Assembly: GCF_000756305.1 (NCBI RefSeq)
Contig: NZ_JRFE01000006.1
Location: forward strand, 139,090 to 203,089
Reading direction: 5' to 3'
Source of the DNA: Myxosarcina sp. GI1
GTDB lineage: Bacteria; Cyanobacteriota; Cyanobacteriia; Cyanobacteriales; Xenococcaceae
Length of the DNA stretch: 64,000 bases
This document shows positions 19,058 through 28,266 of this stretch, piece after piece. Positions within the stretch are counted from its first letter, which is position 1. Each line of letters begins with the position of its first letter. The translations under genes were made by a program, and so were the position numbers. The notes below the pieces were generated by a model. The model worked only from the letters and a program-made list of their open reading frames with translations, did not search any database and was not told the origin of the DNA.

Positions 19058-20260
19058 CTAGCTATGGTCACGCACATAAAACCGTTGAGCTAAAATAGAA
19101 GAATACTTTAGGCTAATTCTTAGGGGTCGAATTAAATAATAAACAAAAGTAAAATAATTCGGCAGATGGATAAAATCCCGATCGTTTTTTGTGATATTCA
19201 TCCAACCAGAATGTTTCATCAAACCAATAAAACTTTTGACTTTGTCTTGCCAATCCTCTCTAGTACGAATATGAAATATAGTTCTCTCCACTTCTTCTAT
19301 TGGAGAAATAGCTTGAGAAAAAAGTCGTTTTTTAATATTTTCAGCAATCGATTGAGCGACTCTATCTGCTTTAATGTGTCGCAAAATAGTATCATTAAGT
19401 GGAATATCTAAAAAATTGCTAGATATAAAAATACCAACTAAAACCAATCTTTTACACCTCAATTTATTAATTTTAATTATTAATCTTTCCCAATCTATGT
19501 TCGGATGAGAGCGCAGCAATTCGGCGACATCACATATTCGATTTAAATTTTGCCAACACTCTTTAGTTCCGTTCAAACAAAGGACAATTAGAGAAGTTTC
19601 TAGAGATAAAGTCAATACATTGATACCAGATAAAGAGATAAATTCAATATGCTCCCATAAATAATTTGAACTTGAAAAACAAGAGAGATGTTTGGGTACA
19701 ATATCTTGATGTAAATCTAAAGAGTAAAGATCGTTGCGTTGGTAATGAGCCTCCCATGGAACTCGAACGCGCAACCAATATCCATAGGAAATCAACAATT
19801 GTTCGGCTTTTACAAAATCAGATTCATGAACTAGAATGTCTAAATCCTGTATTTCTCTAAGAGCAAGATTGCCATAAGCTAAAGCAGTTAAAGTAGGCCC
19901 CTTAAAAGCTATAACAGGAATTTTGTGTTTTTTGAACAAATCTACAAGTTTTAGAAGTTCGCTGGTTAAAAGTAAGTTACGCCTGAGATTCTTCTTAAAA
20001 AAAAGTTGTAGATTGTCCAGGATATTTTTGGGAACAGCATTTGGGCAAGTATCTTTTAAACTTTGGTAAACCAGAGGCATGACCTTATGTTGTTTTGCTA
20101 TCTCAATTAACTCTGCCCAGTTAATATTTTGCCGAAGTAAATTCTCTATTGCCTCAGCTGTTTGAGAATTCATCTCAGTACGGGTAAGACAAAGTAATAA
20201 CTGAGTCTCCAAAGAGCCAGTCTCGACAGGTATTTTATTAGCCTGGGATGAAGTAATCAT
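19058..20260 (-). CDS. Nucleotidyltransferase-fold protein (PF14907 type) in the lasso cluster
   Basis: A 400-residue protein of the uncharacterised nucleotidyltransferase family NTP_transf_5. The hallmark is the run VIAFKGPTLTALAYG followed by LREIQDLDILV, where the Asp pair in DLDILV would bind metal, then the LDLHQDIVP stretch. The C-terminal half is helical. Members are common beside lasso and other RiPP clusters and beside HprK-like kinases. From memory, in the pseudomycoidin cluster such a protein further modifies the phosphorylated C terminus of the peptide. Here it starts 6 bases after the ABC transporter stop, so it is tightly in the operon. A tailoring role is likely; the donor is unknown. 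Confidence 0.8.
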   Translation of the reverse strand: MITSSQANKIPVETGSLETQLLLCLTRTEMNSQTAEAIENLLRQNINWAELIEIAKQHKVMPLVYQSLKDTCPNAVPKNILDNLQLFFKKNLRRNLLLTSELLKLVDLFKKHKIPVIAFKGPTLTALAYGNLALREIQDLDILVHESDFVKAEQLLISYGYWLRVRVPWEAHYQRNDLYSLDLHQDIVPKHLSCFSSSNYLWEHIEFISLSGINVLTLSLETSLIVLCLNGTKECWQNLNRICDVAELLRSHPNIDWERLIIKINKLRCKRLVLVGIFISSNFLDIPLNDTILRHIKADRVAQSIAENIKKRLFSQAISPIEEVERTIFHIRTREDWQDKVKSFIGLMKHSGWMNITKNDRDFIHLPNYFTFVYYLIRPLRISLKYSSILAQRFYVRDHS

Positions 20261-20266
20261 ATTTTT

Positions 20267-22105
20267 TCAGCTTGAATAATTTTTAGCGTTTGTTTTCATT
20301 TGTGCTTTCCATGACCTTGCATAAACAGAATCTCGTCTGAGTAGTTCTTCGTGGCTGCCAGATTCGACAACTTTACCTTGGCGCATAACATAGATAAGAT
20401 CTGCACGCATTGCCAGGGTAAAACGATGAGTTATCACAATCGCTGTTTTTTTTATGGATAAGTCGCGAAAACGAGTAAACCAGTCTACTTCTGTCCAGGG
20501 ATCCATAGCACTGGTAGGCTCGTCTAAGATGATAATTTGAGCCTTGCGGACAAACGCTCTAGCTAGAGCAATCCTCTGCCATTCTCCGCCACTAAGTTCG
20601 CAACCTCCTGCAAATCCTTTTCCCATCAAACTAGAATAGCCTTGAGGTAAAGACTCGATAACATGATGTACACCTGCTCTTTTAGCAGCTGCTTGAATTT
20701 CTTCTAAGTTAGGAGAACCTTCCAAATCTCCCAAGGCTATATTGTCTGCTGCATTAACATAATAGGGAATCGGGAACTGAAATACAGCCGAGATCGAGCG
20801 ACGAAGCTCGGCAATAGATATTTCTCGAATATTGACCCCATCTAGTTCGATGCTTCCTTCTTCAGGATCGTAAAAACGGCATAGAAGCTTAATTAGAGTA
20901 CTTTTACCCGCACCATTATCTCCAACAATTACTGCTACTTTTCCAGCAGGAATCGTCAAGTTGAAATTTTGCAAAACAAAGCGATCGCTTCCAGGGTAGC
21001 GAAAACTTACTTGCTTAAAACAAATACTTGTTTTTAATATTGGTACTGGTTGTGGGTTAGATAATTCTGCAAGCTGAGATTGTAGTTGTAGAAATTCAAA
21101 TAAATTACTGAGAAATAGACTATTTTGATAAATTTCACCCAAATTACTCAACGTAGAGCGCATCAAATTCTGCCCTTTGTTGAAGACTTGATAAAATAAT
21201 GTCAGATCGCCTAAACTCATTATTCCCAAAAGCACTTGGCGTCCAATCCAGACCAAAACGCTACCAGAAATCAATAGTGATAACATTCCTGCCCACAAAC
21301 GTCCCAAACTCCTTTCTCTGGCTAGTTGGATTTTTTCTCGTCGCAGACGAGAGCGCAAGCTTTGGTAAGCAGATTTAAAATGATTTCCTAAACCGAACAA
21401 ACGTAATTCTGCTACCGCCGAATTATGAGTTAACAATAACTGATAATAGTCAAGCCAACGACGGTCGACTGTAGTCCTTTCCCACCAGCGATAATTTTTT
21501 TGATTGAGGGATAGAATAATGTAAAAACCAGGCAAAGTACTAGCAAATAAAAAGACTGGCAACCATAATCCATAAGAAACAAGAAGTGCTGCCATTGCCA
21601 ACAGAGTAATACTGTTTTGAATTAAACTTCCAGTATTATCGAGCAATAAAAGAGATTGCCCACTAGCATCACTAGTAGCGCGATTGAGTCTATCGTGATA
21701 GTCTGAAGATTCATAAAAAGCATAATCTACAGTAATGGCCTTTTGATGAACTAATTCACTAATGTAGTCTTGCGTCAATTCTGATTGAGCGATACGAACC
21801 CATGCACTTAAGCCCTGAGACAATTCTGTAAGAATTAAGACTCCTCCAAGTAAAATTCCAGGTAATAAAATTGGTTGAATAGCTCGCACAGAAACTCCGA
21901 TTCCCCCCACTTTCACCAAACAATCTACTAAAGAGCGAGTTATTGCAACACTAGCAGCAGGAAGTAAGCCTTGAAAGATTAGCAAAGCTACCCAAGCTAC
22001 TAACCAGTTCCCTGCTGCTTTCCAGATTAACTGGAAAATTTGAGGTAGATAAGCTAAACGAGTTTTTACCGTTCGGAATTGCCGAGCAATTTTGGGCTTT
22101 TTCAC
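20267..22105 (-). CDS. ABC exporter (fused membrane and ATPase) for the lasso peptide
   Basis: A 612-residue half transporter of the MsbA/LagD-like exporter type. The N-terminal 330 residues contain about six membrane helices. The ATPase has Walker A GDNGAGKST, Q-loop FQFPIPYY, signature LSGGEWQR, Walker B IIILDEPTSAMDP, and the H-loop VITHRFT. There is no N-terminal C39 peptidase domain, as expected because leader removal in lasso systems is done by the B2 protein. It lies between the kinase and nucleotidyltransferase genes and most likely exports the mature peptide, giving self-immunity. This corresponds to the D component of lasso clusters. Confidence 0.88.
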   Translation of the reverse strand: MKKPKIARQFRTVKTRLAYLPQIFQLIWKAAGNWLVAWVALLIFQGLLPAASVAITRSLVDCLVKVGGIGVSVRAIQPILLPGILLGGVLILTELSQGLSAWVRIAQSELTQDYISELVHQKAITVDYAFYESSDYHDRLNRATSDASGQSLLLLDNTGSLIQNSITLLAMAALLVSYGLWLPVFLFASTLPGFYIILSLNQKNYRWWERTTVDRRWLDYYQLLLTHNSAVAELRLFGLGNHFKSAYQSLRSRLRREKIQLARERSLGRLWAGMLSLLISGSVLVWIGRQVLLGIMSLGDLTLFYQVFNKGQNLMRSTLSNLGEIYQNSLFLSNLFEFLQLQSQLAELSNPQPVPILKTSICFKQVSFRYPGSDRFVLQNFNLTIPAGKVAVIVGDNGAGKSTLIKLLCRFYDPEEGSIELDGVNIREISIAELRRSISAVFQFPIPYYVNAADNIALGDLEGSPNLEEIQAAAKRAGVHHVIESLPQGYSSLMGKGFAGGCELSGGEWQRIALARAFVRKAQIIILDEPTSAMDPWTEVDWFTRFRDLSIKKTAIVITHRFTLAMRADLIYVMRQGKVVESGSHEELLRRDSVYARSWKAQMKTNAKNYSS

Positions 22106-22182: not shown

Positions 22183-23124
22183 TTATTGTTCGCTGCTAGC
22201 TGTTGTTGAACTTTGAATCTGCTTGATAAAATGCTCCTCTACAGATCTAGCTAGTTCATCGAGCCTAGACAAATCGTTAGGTCTTTTTAGCATATAGACT
22301 TTGACTCGATTAACTAGCTCGCTACATTTTTGAAAGTGAGGTTTAATTCCCATTATTTGAAGCATTTGTTCTCCAAATCGAGCACAGTACCAATTTCGCA
22401 GTGTGGTTGCTAGTGCTACTGAAGATGACATGGACTCAATTTCGATGTTAGCTCCCAAACTTAAAATATAAATACATTTTAAGGGAACGACAGTCGACAC
22501 AAATCCTCGATTAAATCGTTGCACTCGTTTTTCAAAGTCAGGATGTAAACGAGGTAGACTTTCTAGTTGATGTCCTAGAGATATAGCTGAGTCACACCAA
22601 AGCTTTATTTGGGGAAATCCAGATAAAACTAAAGGGCTAAATGGTTGATTGAGATCGATAGCGGTAACATCATCAGAGAGCGTTAAATGACCCCGATTCA
22701 TCATCGCTCCAATAGTAGTAGATTTCCCCCAACCTCGATCTCCAACAAAAGCGATCGCCTCTCCATTTACCATAACCGTACTGGCATGGAGAGTCATTAA
22801 TCCTCTCTGATGCAGTAATAGACCTAAAGCAGCACCCAGTAAATAAATCCTCAGCACTTGCTCTGAAACATTTGGTATTGCCTCGATAACAATCTCACAG
22901 CCATTTCTAACTAAGAAAGTTCCACCATCTTTCCAGTAAAGATAAGCTTCTTGTTTGGAAATGTGACAATAGCATTCCGAACTAGTAGCTTGCAAAGGCG
23001 GAGGATTTAGGAATCCAAAGCCAATAGTTACATCTACTCGACCTTCACCTGAATTATTACTCAATAACTCTGGCAAGAAGATACCTGAAGTAATTCTCAA
23101 GCCATAAGCAATGTATGAATACAT
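22183..23124 (-). CDS. HprK-related kinase, probable lasso-peptide C-terminal Ser kinase
   Basis: A 313-residue protein related to the C-terminal half of HPr kinase. Walker A is FVGDRGWGKSTT at residues 127-137. The motif LTLSDDVTAIDL (Asp151/152) provides the catalytic and metal-binding acids. In paeninodin-type lasso clusters a kinase of this kind phosphorylates the side chain of the C-terminal Ser of the precursor. The precursor gene, whose last residue is Ser, ends 54 bases upstream of this start. The N-terminal 100 residues are divergent, as in other lasso kinases. A true carbon-regulatory HPr kinase is unlikely because the usual N-terminal domain is absent and the context is biosynthetic. 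Confidence 0.82.
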   Translation of the reverse strand: MYSYIAYGLRITSGIFLPELLSNNSGEGRVDVTIGFGFLNPPPLQATSSECYCHISKQEAYLYWKDGGTFLVRNGCEIVIEAIPNVSEQVLRIYLLGAALGLLLHQRGLMTLHASTVMVNGEAIAFVGDRGWGKSTTIGAMMNRGHLTLSDDVTAIDLNQPFSPLVLSGFPQIKLWCDSAISLGHQLESLPRLHPDFEKRVQRFNRGFVSTVVPLKCIYILSLGANIEIESMSSSVALATTLRNWYCARFGEQMLQIMGIKPHFQKCSELVNRVKVYMLKRPNDLSRLDELARSVEEHFIKQIQSSTTASSEQ

Positions 23125-23178: not shown

Positions 23179-23343
23179 CTACGATAGTCTAGCTCCAGTA
23201 GTGTTGCCATTGTTAGGTACGCCATTAGCTGTATTAGCTCCATTGGGGGCATCTTTAAAATCTTGTCCACTACCAAGAGTGATCTCTTCAACACTGCCGT
23301 AAACAGTTAAGATTGGGGTTTCGTAAGTTTCTTTTTGATGCAT
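23179..23343 (-). CDS. Lasso-peptide precursor, 54 aa
   Basis: From ATG 23341-23343, preceded by GGAG about 8 bases upstream, the minus strand encodes 54 residues ending with TAG at 23179-23181. The leader carries the lasso recognition signature bound by B1/RRE proteins: Tyr7-x-x-Pro10, Leu12, Tyr15-Gly16 and Thr22 (YETPILTVYG, then EEIT). Thr22 is at the -2 position, so cleavage after Leu23 gives a core starting at Gly24. Core residue 8 is Asp31 (GSGQDFKD), fitting an 8-member Gly1-Asp8 macrolactam. The tail of 23 residues is rich in Asn, Gly, Thr and Ala and ends ARLS, with a C-terminal Ser suited to the neighbouring kinase. A core of 31 is long. The gene sits between the cyclase and kinase genes. 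Confidence 0.85.
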   Translation of the reverse strand: MHQKETYETPILTVYGSVEEITLGSGQDFKDAPNGANTANGVPNNGNTTGARLS

Positions 23344-23389: not shown

Positions 23390-23448
23390 TCAATAGTCAT
23401 TAATTAATTCTTGCCAGAACATCACCTCCTTAACATAAATATCACCTC
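23390..23448 (-). promoter_or_regulatory. Two coupled mini-ORFs with strong ribosome sites upstream of the lasso precursor
   Basis: The minus strand reads GGGAGGTGA, seven bases later ATG TTA AGG AGG TGA (23422-23436, MLRR), whose codons AGGAGGTG are themselves a perfect Shine-Dalgarno. Its stop overlaps the next start as TGATG. The second mini-frame (23390-23422) encodes MFWQELINDY and stops 47 bases before the precursor ATG. This is a compact arrangement of coupled leader frames in the 149-base gap between the cyclase and precursor genes. It may tune precursor translation, mark an RNA processing site, or be chance duplication of the GGAGGTGAT word. Confidence 0.5.
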
Positions 23449-23492
23449 CCAAAAATCTTTAAAAGTTTGTCATTTTGTCGATCGATACTTGG

Positions 23493-25394
23493 CTAAAATT
23501 CTTCTTTACATAGCCACAAACCTAAAGTTGTTGCTATCCATAACAGAGCAGCATCGTCTTCCAAGCCGCAGTCGTTAAAATTTTGATAAGCTCGATTTAA
23601 TACCTTCGTGTCAATAAATCGCTCGATTGAAGAAGATTTCGTAATCAATACTCCTTCTATACATTGCCGATCTAAAGTACTCAACCCATGATGAAAATTA
23701 GGGTAAAGATTACCTTTATCGGTACGCCACTGTACTTTTGGCGGTAAGTACTTTGCCAGGGCGCGACGCATTAAATATCGAATCCAGCCATTGTGGAATT
23801 TTTCTTGAGGCGGGATAGCCAAACAGAATTCAACTAATCGCTTATCTGTGAAAGGAAATCTTGCTTCAATACCAAAAGCTGAAGCAGCCTTATTAATACC
23901 TTCAAGAGCAAATGAATTGGCTCCACTTATAATATCTTGATGATGATATTCTCTGGCAGTCCAGAATATTTGAGACCGATTTTGTGAAAATGCTTGAATT
24001 CTGTCTAGAAGTTTGATGTTTCTCGCAAAATCAGAGTTGACAATTGGATCGAGTTTAGGTGATTCAATTTGATAACCCTTGAGTTTGCGCCATGCCTGAC
24101 GTAAGTTTTCCGAAACCCAAGGTTTGAGACTATATTGCCATAGATAATGTTTGAGCCATTCTTGCGTAGAGCCTCCATTTCGCTTTGTTGCCGATTGGAT
24201 TTCTTTTAACAAAGTTATCCAGCGAAACTTACGTGCCAGTTCGATTAAGTATGGCCAGCCATGAGATACGGTAGTATCTCCCAAAAACCCATCTAATATA
24301 ATCCTTACCCCTTGTTGCTTGGCACTTTTATATAAACTCCAATGGATAAAAAGATTGGGAGCATAAAAAGGTTCATCCTGATGCCAAAGGACACGATCTA
24401 TATCCCCAAGCGGACTAAGTTGGTCTGCTCTTACGTAGCTAGGGATGACTGAATTGCAAGCTAAAATCTCATTAATATAAACACGCTCATCACATTGAGT
24501 AATCTTATCAAATATGGCAGAAAATGTTTTTAATGGGGTATTTTGCCTAGCTAAAATTTGACTTGCCACGCTAGTAATAGAGGACGAATCAAGACCACCA
24601 CTGAGAAATGAGCCTACAGGAAAAGCACCCCGAAGTCGGCAGCTTACGGCTCGAGTAAAAATATCATCAAACGCGGCAATATATTCTCGCTCTGAACTAA
24701 GGTGTAATTCATATTTAGCATCGAGAACATAATATTTTTCTAGCCGAAATTTATGTGAAGATACCGTCAAACAATGACTGGGAGCAAGTCGATAAATATT
24801 TTGATAAAAAGTAATCGACCGATCCTCAAACATCGCTTCTAGATAGTCACCCACTCTAGTCTCATTTAACTGGCTAGATACTTCAGGCAGACATAAAATA
24901 CCTTTGATTTCACTAGCAAAAATAAACGCTTTTTTGGGAAGATAATAATAATAAAAAGGCTTTACACCAAAATGATCTCTGGCACAAAATATTGATTGCT
25001 GAGATTTATCCCAAATAGCAAAAGCAAAATCACCCAATAGCTTTTCGGAGCATTGCTTACCCCATTTTTTGTAAGCAGCCAAAATTATTTCACTATCGGA
25101 TATGGTTTCTTGGAGGTATCTGTTTAATAATAAAGCTGAAATTAGTTCTTCTCGATTATCAATCCGAGCATCAGCAGTAATCACGTAATTGCTATTACGA
25201 CTAACTAACGGCAGTTTCTCCTGAAGTGATTCTGGAGTATGCCATAACATCCGATGCCCTAAACCAATCGCCCCTTCATGCCATTGACCAGTTCTATCAG
25301 CTCCACGATGGGCAAGAATCTCTAGCATTTTGTCTAGATTTGCTGTGTTAACTGGATTACTATCAAGGTTATATATCCCCAAAATGGCGCTCAA
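23493..25394 (-). CDS. Lasso cyclase, asparagine synthetase B-like (C protein)
   Basis: A 633-residue homologue of asparagine synthetase that activates the core Asp side chain by adenylation and closes the macrolactam with the N-terminal amine. The ATP pyrophosphatase loop is SGGLDSSS at residues 265-272. The N-terminal glutaminase-like domain is kept but its catalytic Cys2 is Ser (MSAILGIYNL), so it cannot supply ammonia from glutamine, as expected for a lasso cyclase. Its start overlaps the B2 stop by four bases (ATGA), indicating coupling. The context with B1, B2 and the precursor makes the cyclase assignment firm compared with a true AsnB. Confidence 0.9.
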   Translation of the reverse strand: MSAILGIYNLDSNPVNTANLDKMLEILAHRGADRTGQWHEGAIGLGHRMLWHTPESLQEKLPLVSRNSNYVITADARIDNREELISALLLNRYLQETISDSEIILAAYKKWGKQCSEKLLGDFAFAIWDKSQQSIFCARDHFGVKPFYYYYLPKKAFIFASEIKGILCLPEVSSQLNETRVGDYLEAMFEDRSITFYQNIYRLAPSHCLTVSSHKFRLEKYYVLDAKYELHLSSEREYIAAFDDIFTRAVSCRLRGAFPVGSFLSGGLDSSSITSVASQILARQNTPLKTFSAIFDKITQCDERVYINEILACNSVIPSYVRADQLSPLGDIDRVLWHQDEPFYAPNLFIHWSLYKSAKQQGVRIILDGFLGDTTVSHGWPYLIELARKFRWITLLKEIQSATKRNGGSTQEWLKHYLWQYSLKPWVSENLRQAWRKLKGYQIESPKLDPIVNSDFARNIKLLDRIQAFSQNRSQIFWTAREYHHQDIISGANSFALEGINKAASAFGIEARFPFTDKRLVEFCLAIPPQEKFHNGWIRYLMRRALAKYLPPKVQWRTDKGNLYPNFHHGLSTLDRQCIEGVLITKSSSIERFIDTKVLNRAYQNFNDCGLEDDAALLWIATTLGLWLCKEEF

Positions 25395-25837
25395 CTTTCT
25401 TTTTCACTCCAAGTTGTCAAGGGAGTAAAGCGAGAAAGGTCAGGAAGATAACCAATTACTATTTTGCCTTCGTTTTCAATCCAAGCATGAGCCTCTAAAT
25501 TACCACTTCTGTTTTTAGCTACGCCGATTTGTAGTTGGGAACAGTAACCATAACTGCTCATTAGAGTTTGTGTAGTTAAGGCTTTGGCCAAACATTTAAC
25601 CTCTCTAAACCAATATCGGCTACACAAATCAATCGCCCAAAGAATTTTATCTAACTCAATATGAGATACTTTTTGATAATTGAAAAATTGCTGGCGAACC
25701 TTGTCTAACAAGTAACTCAAAGTTCCATAAGGAAGCAACCACAATCCTAATCGTATCAAGCCCAATAAGACAAAAGTATCAATTAATAATCTGCGTTCCT
25801 TTCCTGTCAAGTCAATAAAATTAAGTACTTGCTTCAT
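25391..25837 (-). CDS. Lasso-peptide leader peptidase B2, transglutaminase-like
   Basis: A 148-residue protein of the lasso B2 family, the cysteine protease that removes the leader. The catalytic Cys82 lies in EVKCLAKAL and His117 in LEAHAWIE; Asp133 in YLPDLSRFTPL is the likely third residue. The N-terminal region (KERRLLIDTFVLLGLIRLGL) is the usual helical start of split B2 proteins. It overlaps the B1 gene by 17 bases and the cyclase by four, so all three are translated together. Length matches split-B systems rather than the fused McjB form. Confidence 0.88.
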   Translation of the reverse strand: MKQVLNFIDLTGKERRLLIDTFVLLGLIRLGLWLLPYGTLSYLLDKVRQQFFNYQKVSHIELDKILWAIDLCSRYWFREVKCLAKALTTQTLMSSYGYCSQLQIGVAKNRSGNLEAHAWIENEGKIVIGYLPDLSRFTPLTTWSEKES

Positions 25838-26165
25838 TGCTTATTAGGATTAAACCTTTAGATTGTAATTGTTCGAGCAAAGATAACAAGTCACTTTGAC
25901 ATCGTTCTGAACTGACTTCGTATTTTGTCAAAATAGCATCTCGAACTTCGGCAAAAGTTTTTGGCTGTTGAATGAGATTCCAAACAGTTTGTCCAATAGG
26001 ATTTAGGCCATAGTATATTCCTGAATTGCTATTGAGAATTAATAGTTCGCCATCCATCTCGGCAGCAATCTGACCTTTGGCTGCTATTATTTTTAGCTTA
26101 TTGTTTTTAAATGAAGATAGAAAAAAGCTTTGATTCACCTCAACGTTCTCCAACACGAGATTCAA
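25821..26165 (-). CDS. Lasso-peptide RRE protein B1, PqqD-like
   Basis: A 114-residue PqqD-like protein with the RiPP recognition element fold: strands GELLILNSNSGIYYGLNPIG and then helices VWNLIQQPKTFAEV and the C-terminal CQSDLLSLLEQLQSKGLIL. It binds the leader, mainly the YxxP segment, and presents it to the B2 peptidase. It carries an N-terminal extension of about 25 residues beyond a minimal RRE. As first gene of the lasso operon it begins 43 bases after the stop of the upstream serine hydrolase, with which it might share a transcript. Confidence 0.85.
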   Translation of the reverse strand: MNLVLENVEVNQSFFLSSFKNNKLKIIAAKGQIAAEMDGELLILNSNSGIYYGLNPIGQTVWNLIQQPKTFAEVRDAILTKYEVSSERCQSDLLSLLEQLQSKGLILISNEAST

Positions 26166-26208: not shown

Positions 26209-28266
26209 CTAAAACTGCCAACAGAGCAGATTCCAGTAAGCTAATAAAGGAATAAAGCTGATTGCGGCGATAGTAACCAAACTGTAATGCGATCGCTCCT
26301 GCCAAGACCAATAGTTTTTGCGCCAAACCACCAGTATTGAAACAAACAAAATTAGAGTCAGTACGGCAGATAATATCGGTAAACCAAGTAAACCTACCGC
26401 CACTGGTGGAACGCCATAAGCGAGTTTCCAAGGTCCCCACAACCATAAATATAACGGCAATCCAATCAGAAACACTAAGTTTAATAGAGCGATCGCGCCA
26501 GCTAAAGTACGAACCCAGGTTAATTTTGGCGTATGTACGGTTCTTTTCGATAGAATCCGCAGTAAAGGGCGAATGATGCCAGCGACTATAGCTGTCAGAA
26601 AAAAAATCGCGCAGAAAATTAAAATTCCTAGTTGCACTGTAATCGTCTCGTACCAAGGCATTCGTTGATAGGTACCGATTTTGGGATATAGAGGATTAGA
26701 AACATGGGTAACATTGCCCGAATCGTCAGCGACAAAAAACACATAGGCATTATCGCGATCGCGGTAAAATAATCCTGGTTCTGAGGTAGGAGTTAACTCG
26801 ACGTTCTCTACCTGACTGCGGAATAAAAGCGGTGGAGTTTTAACTAATAAAGTTCCATTGTCTTGAGTAGTTACTTTAATTTCTTTAGCAACGCCAGTTA
26901 TTTTACCAATTGTAAAGCGCGGATACTCCATGTCGCGGTAAGTTCCAGTATATCGTTCTAACTGTTCGGGTGGAACTTCAGTTTTATCTGAGTTATTAGT
27001 ATTAGAACCTGGAAAATAGCGATCGAAAAAACGAGTGATAAATTCACCGTGTACGTTACTAAAACTATTACAGGCAATAAAAATACCGATATTTTCTTCG
27101 GGAATTAAAGTTAGAGAACTAGAATAACCCCGCAAGCTTCCCAAGTGTCCGATCGCACGTTTATTATTAATCAAACGTTCCCTAAAACTGTAACCCGTAC
27201 CTGGTAACTTGGGATGAATCTGATAGTGAGTTTGGTGCATCATCTCAACAGTTTCAGGGTTTAATATTTGCCTTTCTCGATAGCTACCCTGTTGCAAATG
27301 AGCCAGCATAAAATGAGCCATATCAGTGGCGGTAGTCATCAATGCTGCTGCTGGAGCGATGTTGAGATAAAGATAGGGAACGGCTTTAGCTTTACCTTTT
27401 TGTATTTGATATCCCGTAGCAAAGTTATCGGGTAATTCCGCAACTGGTGGTTGTTCAAAACTACTTTGCCTCATTTCTAGAGGCTGAAAGATATTTTTAT
27501 CTACATAGTTTACAAAAGGCATACCCGATATTTGTTCTACCAAATAACCGAGTAAAGCAATACTGTGATTTGAGTAGCTGTAAAACTTACCTGGAGGATA
27601 GTTAATAGCTGGCATATATTTGGGTAAATATTCTGCCAAAGGCTGCATTTGAGCTTTAGTTCGCGCACCCAATCCAATAAGACGCTGTGTTGTACCATCA
27701 GTGTGCATCATCATGCGCGCGGGTGTTACCGATTCGCTGTAGGGATTTTCAAGTTGCCAGTCTGGTAAATATCGATCGATATTTTCGTTTAAATCTAGCG
27801 CACCTCGTTCGTATAGTTGCATGGCTGAAGTGGCAGTAAACAACTTAGAAAGAGAAGCTACCCGAAATAAGGTTTTGTCTGCATCTACGGGAATCTTTTG
27901 TTCTAGATTGGCATAACCATAACCATTACTAAAAAAAATTTCCCCATCCTTAACCACAGCAATAGCTGCACCTGGAATCTTAGTCTCCGATAGTTGCTGT
28001 TGAAAAAAATCATTAACAAAATTAGCAAATTCTTGAGGATTGTCGATGTCTATTTTTGGTAATGTTGTAGCCGAACTTTCTCCTGGTGATGAGAGTTGTT
28101 GAGATTGATTATCTAAAATATGAAATTTAGGAGTATCGCGAGCCGAACCAGGTAAGAGAAAAACGAAAAAACATAAAACAAAGCTAATAAAACCGATAAT
28201 AAAATAACGAGTTTTGCGGTCGCTGGCAATATTTCTTAAAATTTGAAATTTTGATAAGTTATTCAT
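26209..28266 (-). CDS. Membrane-anchored serine hydrolase, class C beta-lactamase family (S12)
   Basis: A 685-residue protein. It has an N-terminal signal anchor (YFIIGFISFVLCFFVFLLPG), then a beta-lactamase/D-Ala-D-Ala peptidase domain at about residues 75-430 with the SxxK nucleophile in VASLSKLFT, the YxN motif as SYSNHS, and HLGSLRGYSS near the third motif. A beta-sheet region follows (residues about 440-540), and the last 140 residues contain four or five membrane helices. Proteins of this layout act on peptides or peptidoglycan at the cell surface, but substrates are seldom known. It lies upstream of the lasso operon in the same direction with a 43-base gap; a link to the lasso pathway is possible but unproven. 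Confidence 0.85.
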   Translation of the reverse strand: MNNLSKFQILRNIASDRKTRYFIIGFISFVLCFFVFLLPGSARDTPKFHILDNQSQQLSSPGESSATTLPKIDIDNPQEFANFVNDFFQQQLSETKIPGAAIAVVKDGEIFFSNGYGYANLEQKIPVDADKTLFRVASLSKLFTATSAMQLYERGALDLNENIDRYLPDWQLENPYSESVTPARMMMHTDGTTQRLIGLGARTKAQMQPLAEYLPKYMPAINYPPGKFYSYSNHSIALLGYLVEQISGMPFVNYVDKNIFQPLEMRQSSFEQPPVAELPDNFATGYQIQKGKAKAVPYLYLNIAPAAALMTTATDMAHFMLAHLQQGSYRERQILNPETVEMMHQTHYQIHPKLPGTGYSFRERLINNKRAIGHLGSLRGYSSSLTLIPEENIGIFIACNSFSNVHGEFITRFFDRYFPGSNTNNSDKTEVPPEQLERYTGTYRDMEYPRFTIGKITGVAKEIKVTTQDNGTLLVKTPPLLFRSQVENVELTPTSEPGLFYRDRDNAYVFFVADDSGNVTHVSNPLYPKIGTYQRMPWYETITVQLGILIFCAIFFLTAIVAGIIRPLLRILSKRTVHTPKLTWVRTLAGAIALLNLVFLIGLPLYLWLWGPWKLAYGVPPVAVGLLGLPILSAVLTLILFVSILVVWRKNYWSWQERSHYSLVTIAAISFIPLLAYWNLLCWQF

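Follow-up and report, generated by a model that had tools for sequence, protein, structure and literature searches.

A lasso peptide operon of Myxosarcina sp. GI1 with a plain-tailed precursor and a predicted modification of the C-terminal serine

Among described lasso peptide systems, the pseudomycoidin cluster of Bacillus pseudomycoides combines lasso genes with a kinase (psmK) and a nucleotidyltransferase (psmN). PsmK, like PadeK in the case of paeninodin, phosphorylates a C-terminal Ser, and pseudomycoidin additionally receives one to two hexoses, for which the gene encoding PsmN is needed (reviewed in PMC9266682). Site-directed mutation has shown that His-Lys-Asp-Asp residues matter in these kinases (PMC9266682). 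Long lasso peptides have also been described, namely pandonodin with 33 residues and achromonodin-1 with 30, of which the latter contains a 20-residue loop and provides a precedent for threading by the far end (PMC13352647). Cyanobacterial lasso peptides are described as underexplored (PMC9967302), and our literature search found none that is structurally characterized. In this work we analyzed a 64,000-nucleotide stretch of the Myxosarcina sp. GI1 genome (contig NZ_JRFE01000006.1, positions 139,090 to 203,089), referred to here as the window. It holds a cluster that adds a member to an already known kind of lasso system, and which we read as probably a class II lasso operon with a pseudomycoidin-type gene set, the product of which would carry a modified C-terminal Ser. 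The gene set is the same as in pseudomycoidin, as is the terminal Ser as predicted target residue, but pseudomycoidin comes from another phylum; the comparison covers gene content and the terminal residue, and the modification in Myxosarcina is a prediction. The paeninodin cluster likewise pairs a HKDD-motif lasso kinase with a C-terminal Ser; a nucleotidyltransferase is not mentioned for it in the review (PMC9266682), whereas the Myxosarcina cluster has one.

As Table 1 shows, seven genes lie on one strand in the order B1-B2-C-A-K-D-N. B1, B2, and C overlap, and the gaps between A and K, K and D, and D and N are short. The cluster thus contains a PqqD-like RiPP recognition element, a Cys protease with its triad, and an ATP-dependent cyclase, as a lasso cluster should. 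B1 scores 71.8 bits with the NF033536 (lasso_PqqD_Bac) model, below its cut-off of 80, and is recognized by PF05402. The cyclase retains an SGGLDSS motif and has no Cys nucleophile at residue 2; an N-terminal Cys is a feature of glutamine-using asparagine synthetases. The kinase scores far under the cut-offs of the named HPr-kinase families, reaching 27.6 bits with TIGR04352 (HprK-related kinase A, cut-off 200), which indicates a related fold only. Its AlphaFold model (pLDDT 92) matches PEP carboxykinase and HPr kinase/phosphatase, that is, the HPrK/PEPCK fold. From our reading of the HPr-kinase motifs, its four intact residues are presumably the His-Lys-Asp-Asp positions that were mutated in the described lasso kinases. 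For the model of N, weak matches were obtained to nucleotidyltransferases, LnuA and ANT(2'')-Ia among them. The predicted structures support a kinase fold for K and a nucleotidyltransferase fold for N. Scans for promoters and terminators stayed at chance level. A beta-lactamase-family gene (26209-28266, minus strand) lies upstream of B1 in the same orientation, with 43 bases between its end and B1; neither this gene nor the 178-aa gene downstream of the operon has a match among related lasso loci, and both were rejected as cluster members.

Table 1. Positions of the lasso operon genes and precursor segments within the window
Feature	Coordinates	Strand	Basis
B1, PqqD-type RiPP recognition element	25821..26165	minus	PF05402, 64.7 bits (cut-off 23.4)
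B2, leader peptidase	25391..25837	minus	NF033537, 106 bits (cut-off 33); Cys-His-Asp triad residues present
C, lasso cyclase, asparagine-synthetase-like	23493..25394	minus	NF033535 lass_lactam_cya, 842 bits (cut-off 525)
A, lasso precursor, 54 aa	23179..23343	minus	leader MHQKETYETPILTVYGSVEEITL, core GSGQDFKDAPNGANTANGVPNNGNTTGARLS; NF033528 and NF033521
Leader with YxxP, YG, Thr at -2	23275..23343	minus	sequence; lasso_cyano match at residues 4-23
Ring-forming segment GSGQDFKD (Gly1 to Asp8)	23251..23274	minus	acid conserved at 7-9 in relatives
Plain tail, 23 aa, ending Arg-Leu-Ser	23182..23250	minus	kinase proposed to act on the C-terminal Ser
K, HPr-kinase-like lasso peptide kinase	22183..23124	minus	H113/K134/D151/D152 intact; motifs, AlphaFold model
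D, ABC transporter (ATPase domain), probably an exporter	20267..22105	minus	PF00005, E 3e-32
N, nucleotidyltransferase	19058..20260	minus	PF14907, E 1e-57; DxD (D139, D141)

The precursor gene A runs for 54 codons from an ATG, closely preceded by a ribosome-binding-like GGAG, to a TAG stop. The YxxP, YG, and Thr at -2 that the earlier note had seen in the leader are all in place (Y7xxP10, Y15-G16, Thr22), with Leu23 at -1, and the 31-aa core begins with Gly1 and carries Asp at position 8, within the 7-9 range occupied by the ring acid of lasso cores. The translation scores 36.2 bits (E 4.2e-9, cut-off 33) with NF033528 (lasso_cyano) and 28.8 bits (cut-off 19) with the NF033521 lasso leader model. 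Because of these scores, and because it sits inside a complete lasso operon, the gene is far beyond what chance would yield; a chance open reading frame is ruled out, and precursor A is a real lasso peptide gene of a cyanobacterium. The NF033528 match is confined to the leader, and the core and its modification are undescribed by that model. No better-fitting precursor turned up elsewhere in the genome. Searches of the 7.07 Mb assembly (76 contigs) with the precursor and NF033521 returned no second precursor, and a search with B2 returned no second B2. The gap between the cyclase and precursor A contains, at 23390-23450 on the minus strand, two copies of the Shine-Dalgarno-like GGAGGTGAT and a tiny ORF, MFWQELINDY.

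Related loci came from searches, among them one with the cyclase alignment, across overlapping genome sets that comprised 196 members of the order, 390 members of the class, and 27 members of the family, together with 79 named loci; their precursors were picked by leader motif. A direct search of the named genomes with the precursor A sequence gave no match; among the related loci, L129 (genome G539) belongs to a named Xenococcaceae MAG, a member of the same family. A quick tree built from the cyclases of 117 loci places the Myxosarcina locus as sister to L053, from a Synechococcales MAG, with an SH-aLRT of 92 on a branch that is not starred. The core of L053, GDRQWYSDALIGADGTDGDKGTKCNKNPNGMTHPNWGASLCS, has in common with the Myxosarcina core a GxxQxxxDA ring and a GA...S end, and these features, together with the C-terminal Ser, characterize the nearest cluster, L053/L111.

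These relatives support the predicted closure of an 8-residue ring between Gly1 and Asp8 (GSGQDFKD), as the earlier note had proposed. An Asp or Glu occurs at core position 7-9 in 128 of 146 distinct related cores, whereas over 2000 shuffles the count averaged 42 and peaked at 61; the size of this excess is only approximate since the list was made with a regular expression, cleared manually of obvious junk, and counts kin separately. The ring segment contains a second acid, Asp5. It is disfavored as the ring acid, since we know of no precedent for a 5-residue lasso ring and the conserved acid in related cores is at position 8 or 9. In a group of five loci (L052, L054, L058, L059, and L132), the first conserved acid comes at around position 11-15 of the core, in GxGD or a similar context, rather than at 7-9, which reflects either a misread cut site or a different ring. 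In Rubrobacter taiwanensis (L143:7076), a precursor that adjoins a lasso cyclase, a kinase, and an ABC gene has a core, QGQGGPPGGFNGVGNPPVQC..., that lacks Asp or Glu before position 30.

The tail that follows the ring is indeed plain, with 19 of its 23 residues being Ala, Pro, Asn, Gly, or Thr and the rest Val, Arg, Leu, and Ser; there is no aromatic residue that could act as a plug, and the larger residues are limited to Arg and Leu near the end. The claim that this is unusual does not hold within the family. Related cores range from 14 to 58 residues with a median of 36, plain Gly/Asn/Thr/Val tails are common among them, and 17 of the 146 are devoid of F, Y, W, H, R, and K beyond position 9, and the Myxosarcina tail is thus ordinary for its family. 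A core of 31 residues is long next to characterized lasso peptides, near the top of their range, but not next to its relatives. The total length is comparable to that of pandonodin and achromonodin-1, a comparison that covers length and loop; the tail of pandonodin has a disulfide, whereas the Myxosarcina core has no Cys. No DNA tandem repeat was found in the tail. In the locus L074 (9241-10614, genome G174), tandem precursors with lasso leaders carry long (RGG)n repeats in their core tails, for example GINARPPVDVSSGMPPRGGRGGRGG..., and an NF033535-like cyclase was not found within that 20 kb.

The earlier note overlooked the C-terminal Ser31 together with the downstream genes, which encode a PF14907 nucleotidyltransferase and an HPr-kinase-like kinase that is intact; with these, the end of the tail probably has a role. 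By analogy with the described systems, these neighbors suggest that Ser31 may be phosphorylated and perhaps also bear a sugar. A C-terminal Ser is found in 38 of the 117 loci, while Ser makes up 9.5% of the other core positions (first set of 69), so that it is 3-4 times commoner than expected. It also has a local sequence context: in 30 of the 39 cores that end in Ser, one of the two positions before it (-1 or -2) holds a hydrophobic residue, as compared with 17.6 in tail shuffles. Several other cores share D-x-P-x-G following the ring acid, and a Ser end is found in 12 of the 15 loci of this kind versus 26 of 102 others, although this motif was picked post hoc from the cores and the count takes related loci as separate.

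Rather unlikely, if the likeliest of the alternatives, is that the kinase has its target elsewhere (Ser2, a Thr in the tail, or a separate substrate, for example), with the terminal Ser being coincidental. Of 104 loci, 99 have the kinase, of which only 31 end in Ser; since it is nearly universal and the Ser end is confined to about a third of the cores, a kinase gene is no predictor of a Ser end. The enrichment and sequence context of the Ser, along with the direct precedent of paeninodin and pseudomycoidin (PMC9266682), argue against this reading. Many loci (e.g., L095, L117, L137, and L154) have a kinase and long cyanobacterial cores without a C-terminal Ser but with an internal G-S-x-D near the end, which is a possible alternative phosphorylation site. 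Only 3 of 41 loci with this motif end in Ser, compared with 35 of 76 without it (Fisher 1e-5); the motif was chosen after inspecting the cores, and the association is clade-structured, is not significant as independent pairs, and was set aside.

Considering the favored reading of a modified C-terminal Ser, family membership and intact motifs suggest that B1 would bind the YxxP/YG leader, B2 would cut after Leu(-1), and C would join Gly1 to Asp8. By analogy, phosphorylation of Ser31 by K would follow. A further group may then be added by N, and in view of PsmN it could be a hexose; D, again by analogy, would export the product. The long Asn/Gly-rich segment would form a loop of about 20 residues. 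If the peptide is threaded, the lower stopper would lie toward the C terminus, in the region of Arg29, Leu30, and the modified Ser31; this assignment is speculative and the weakest step of the scheme. Bolder still is the idea, quite unlikely in our estimation, that in this cyanobacterial branch a phosphate and a sugar on the C-terminal Ser replace the amino acid plug and hold a long, plug-less, Asn/Gly-rich thread in the 8-residue ring.

A ring closed at Asp8 from which the tail unthreads, leaving a branched cyclic peptide, is unlikely as well, if less so than that idea. Such a product would fit a tail whose larger residues are Arg and Leu and the existence of plug-poor relatives, and the loss of lock residues can yield unthreading products in other lasso peptides (PMC13352647). 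On the other hand, known enzymes of the lasso cyclase family, which is conserved, thread their substrates, and Leu/Arg or a modified Ser could act as the stopper. Very unlikely, in our view, is trimming of the tail by a host protease after cyclization to give a much shorter mature peptide. Endogenous carboxypeptidases do truncate the tails of other lasso peptides (PMC13352647), and the Asn/Gly-rich segment appears unstructured, but the genes common to related clusters include no dedicated protease, the upstream beta-lactamase-family gene has no match in the related loci, and in relatives that end in Ser the hydrophobic surroundings of this residue suggest that the end is retained. Finally, a decayed or silent cluster whose plain tail stems from drift is highly improbable, for despite the low-complexity Asn/Gly segment and the lack of a close homologue for a selection test, all genes are open, catalytic residues are intact, and the operon spacing is tight.

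The wider question raised here, and the one worth an experiment, is whether and how cyanobacterial cores poor in plug residues remain threaded. The cluster offers a clean test case for whether lasso enzymes can thread substrates that are nearly without bulky residues, and for whether the kinase/nucleotidyltransferase pair builds a stopper. Relatives of the cyclase with 39% identity, accompanied by B1 and B2, also occur in Methanobacteriaceae MAGs (L173, L175, and L177), where the candidate cores are very short (14-16 aa) and lie on the opposite strand.
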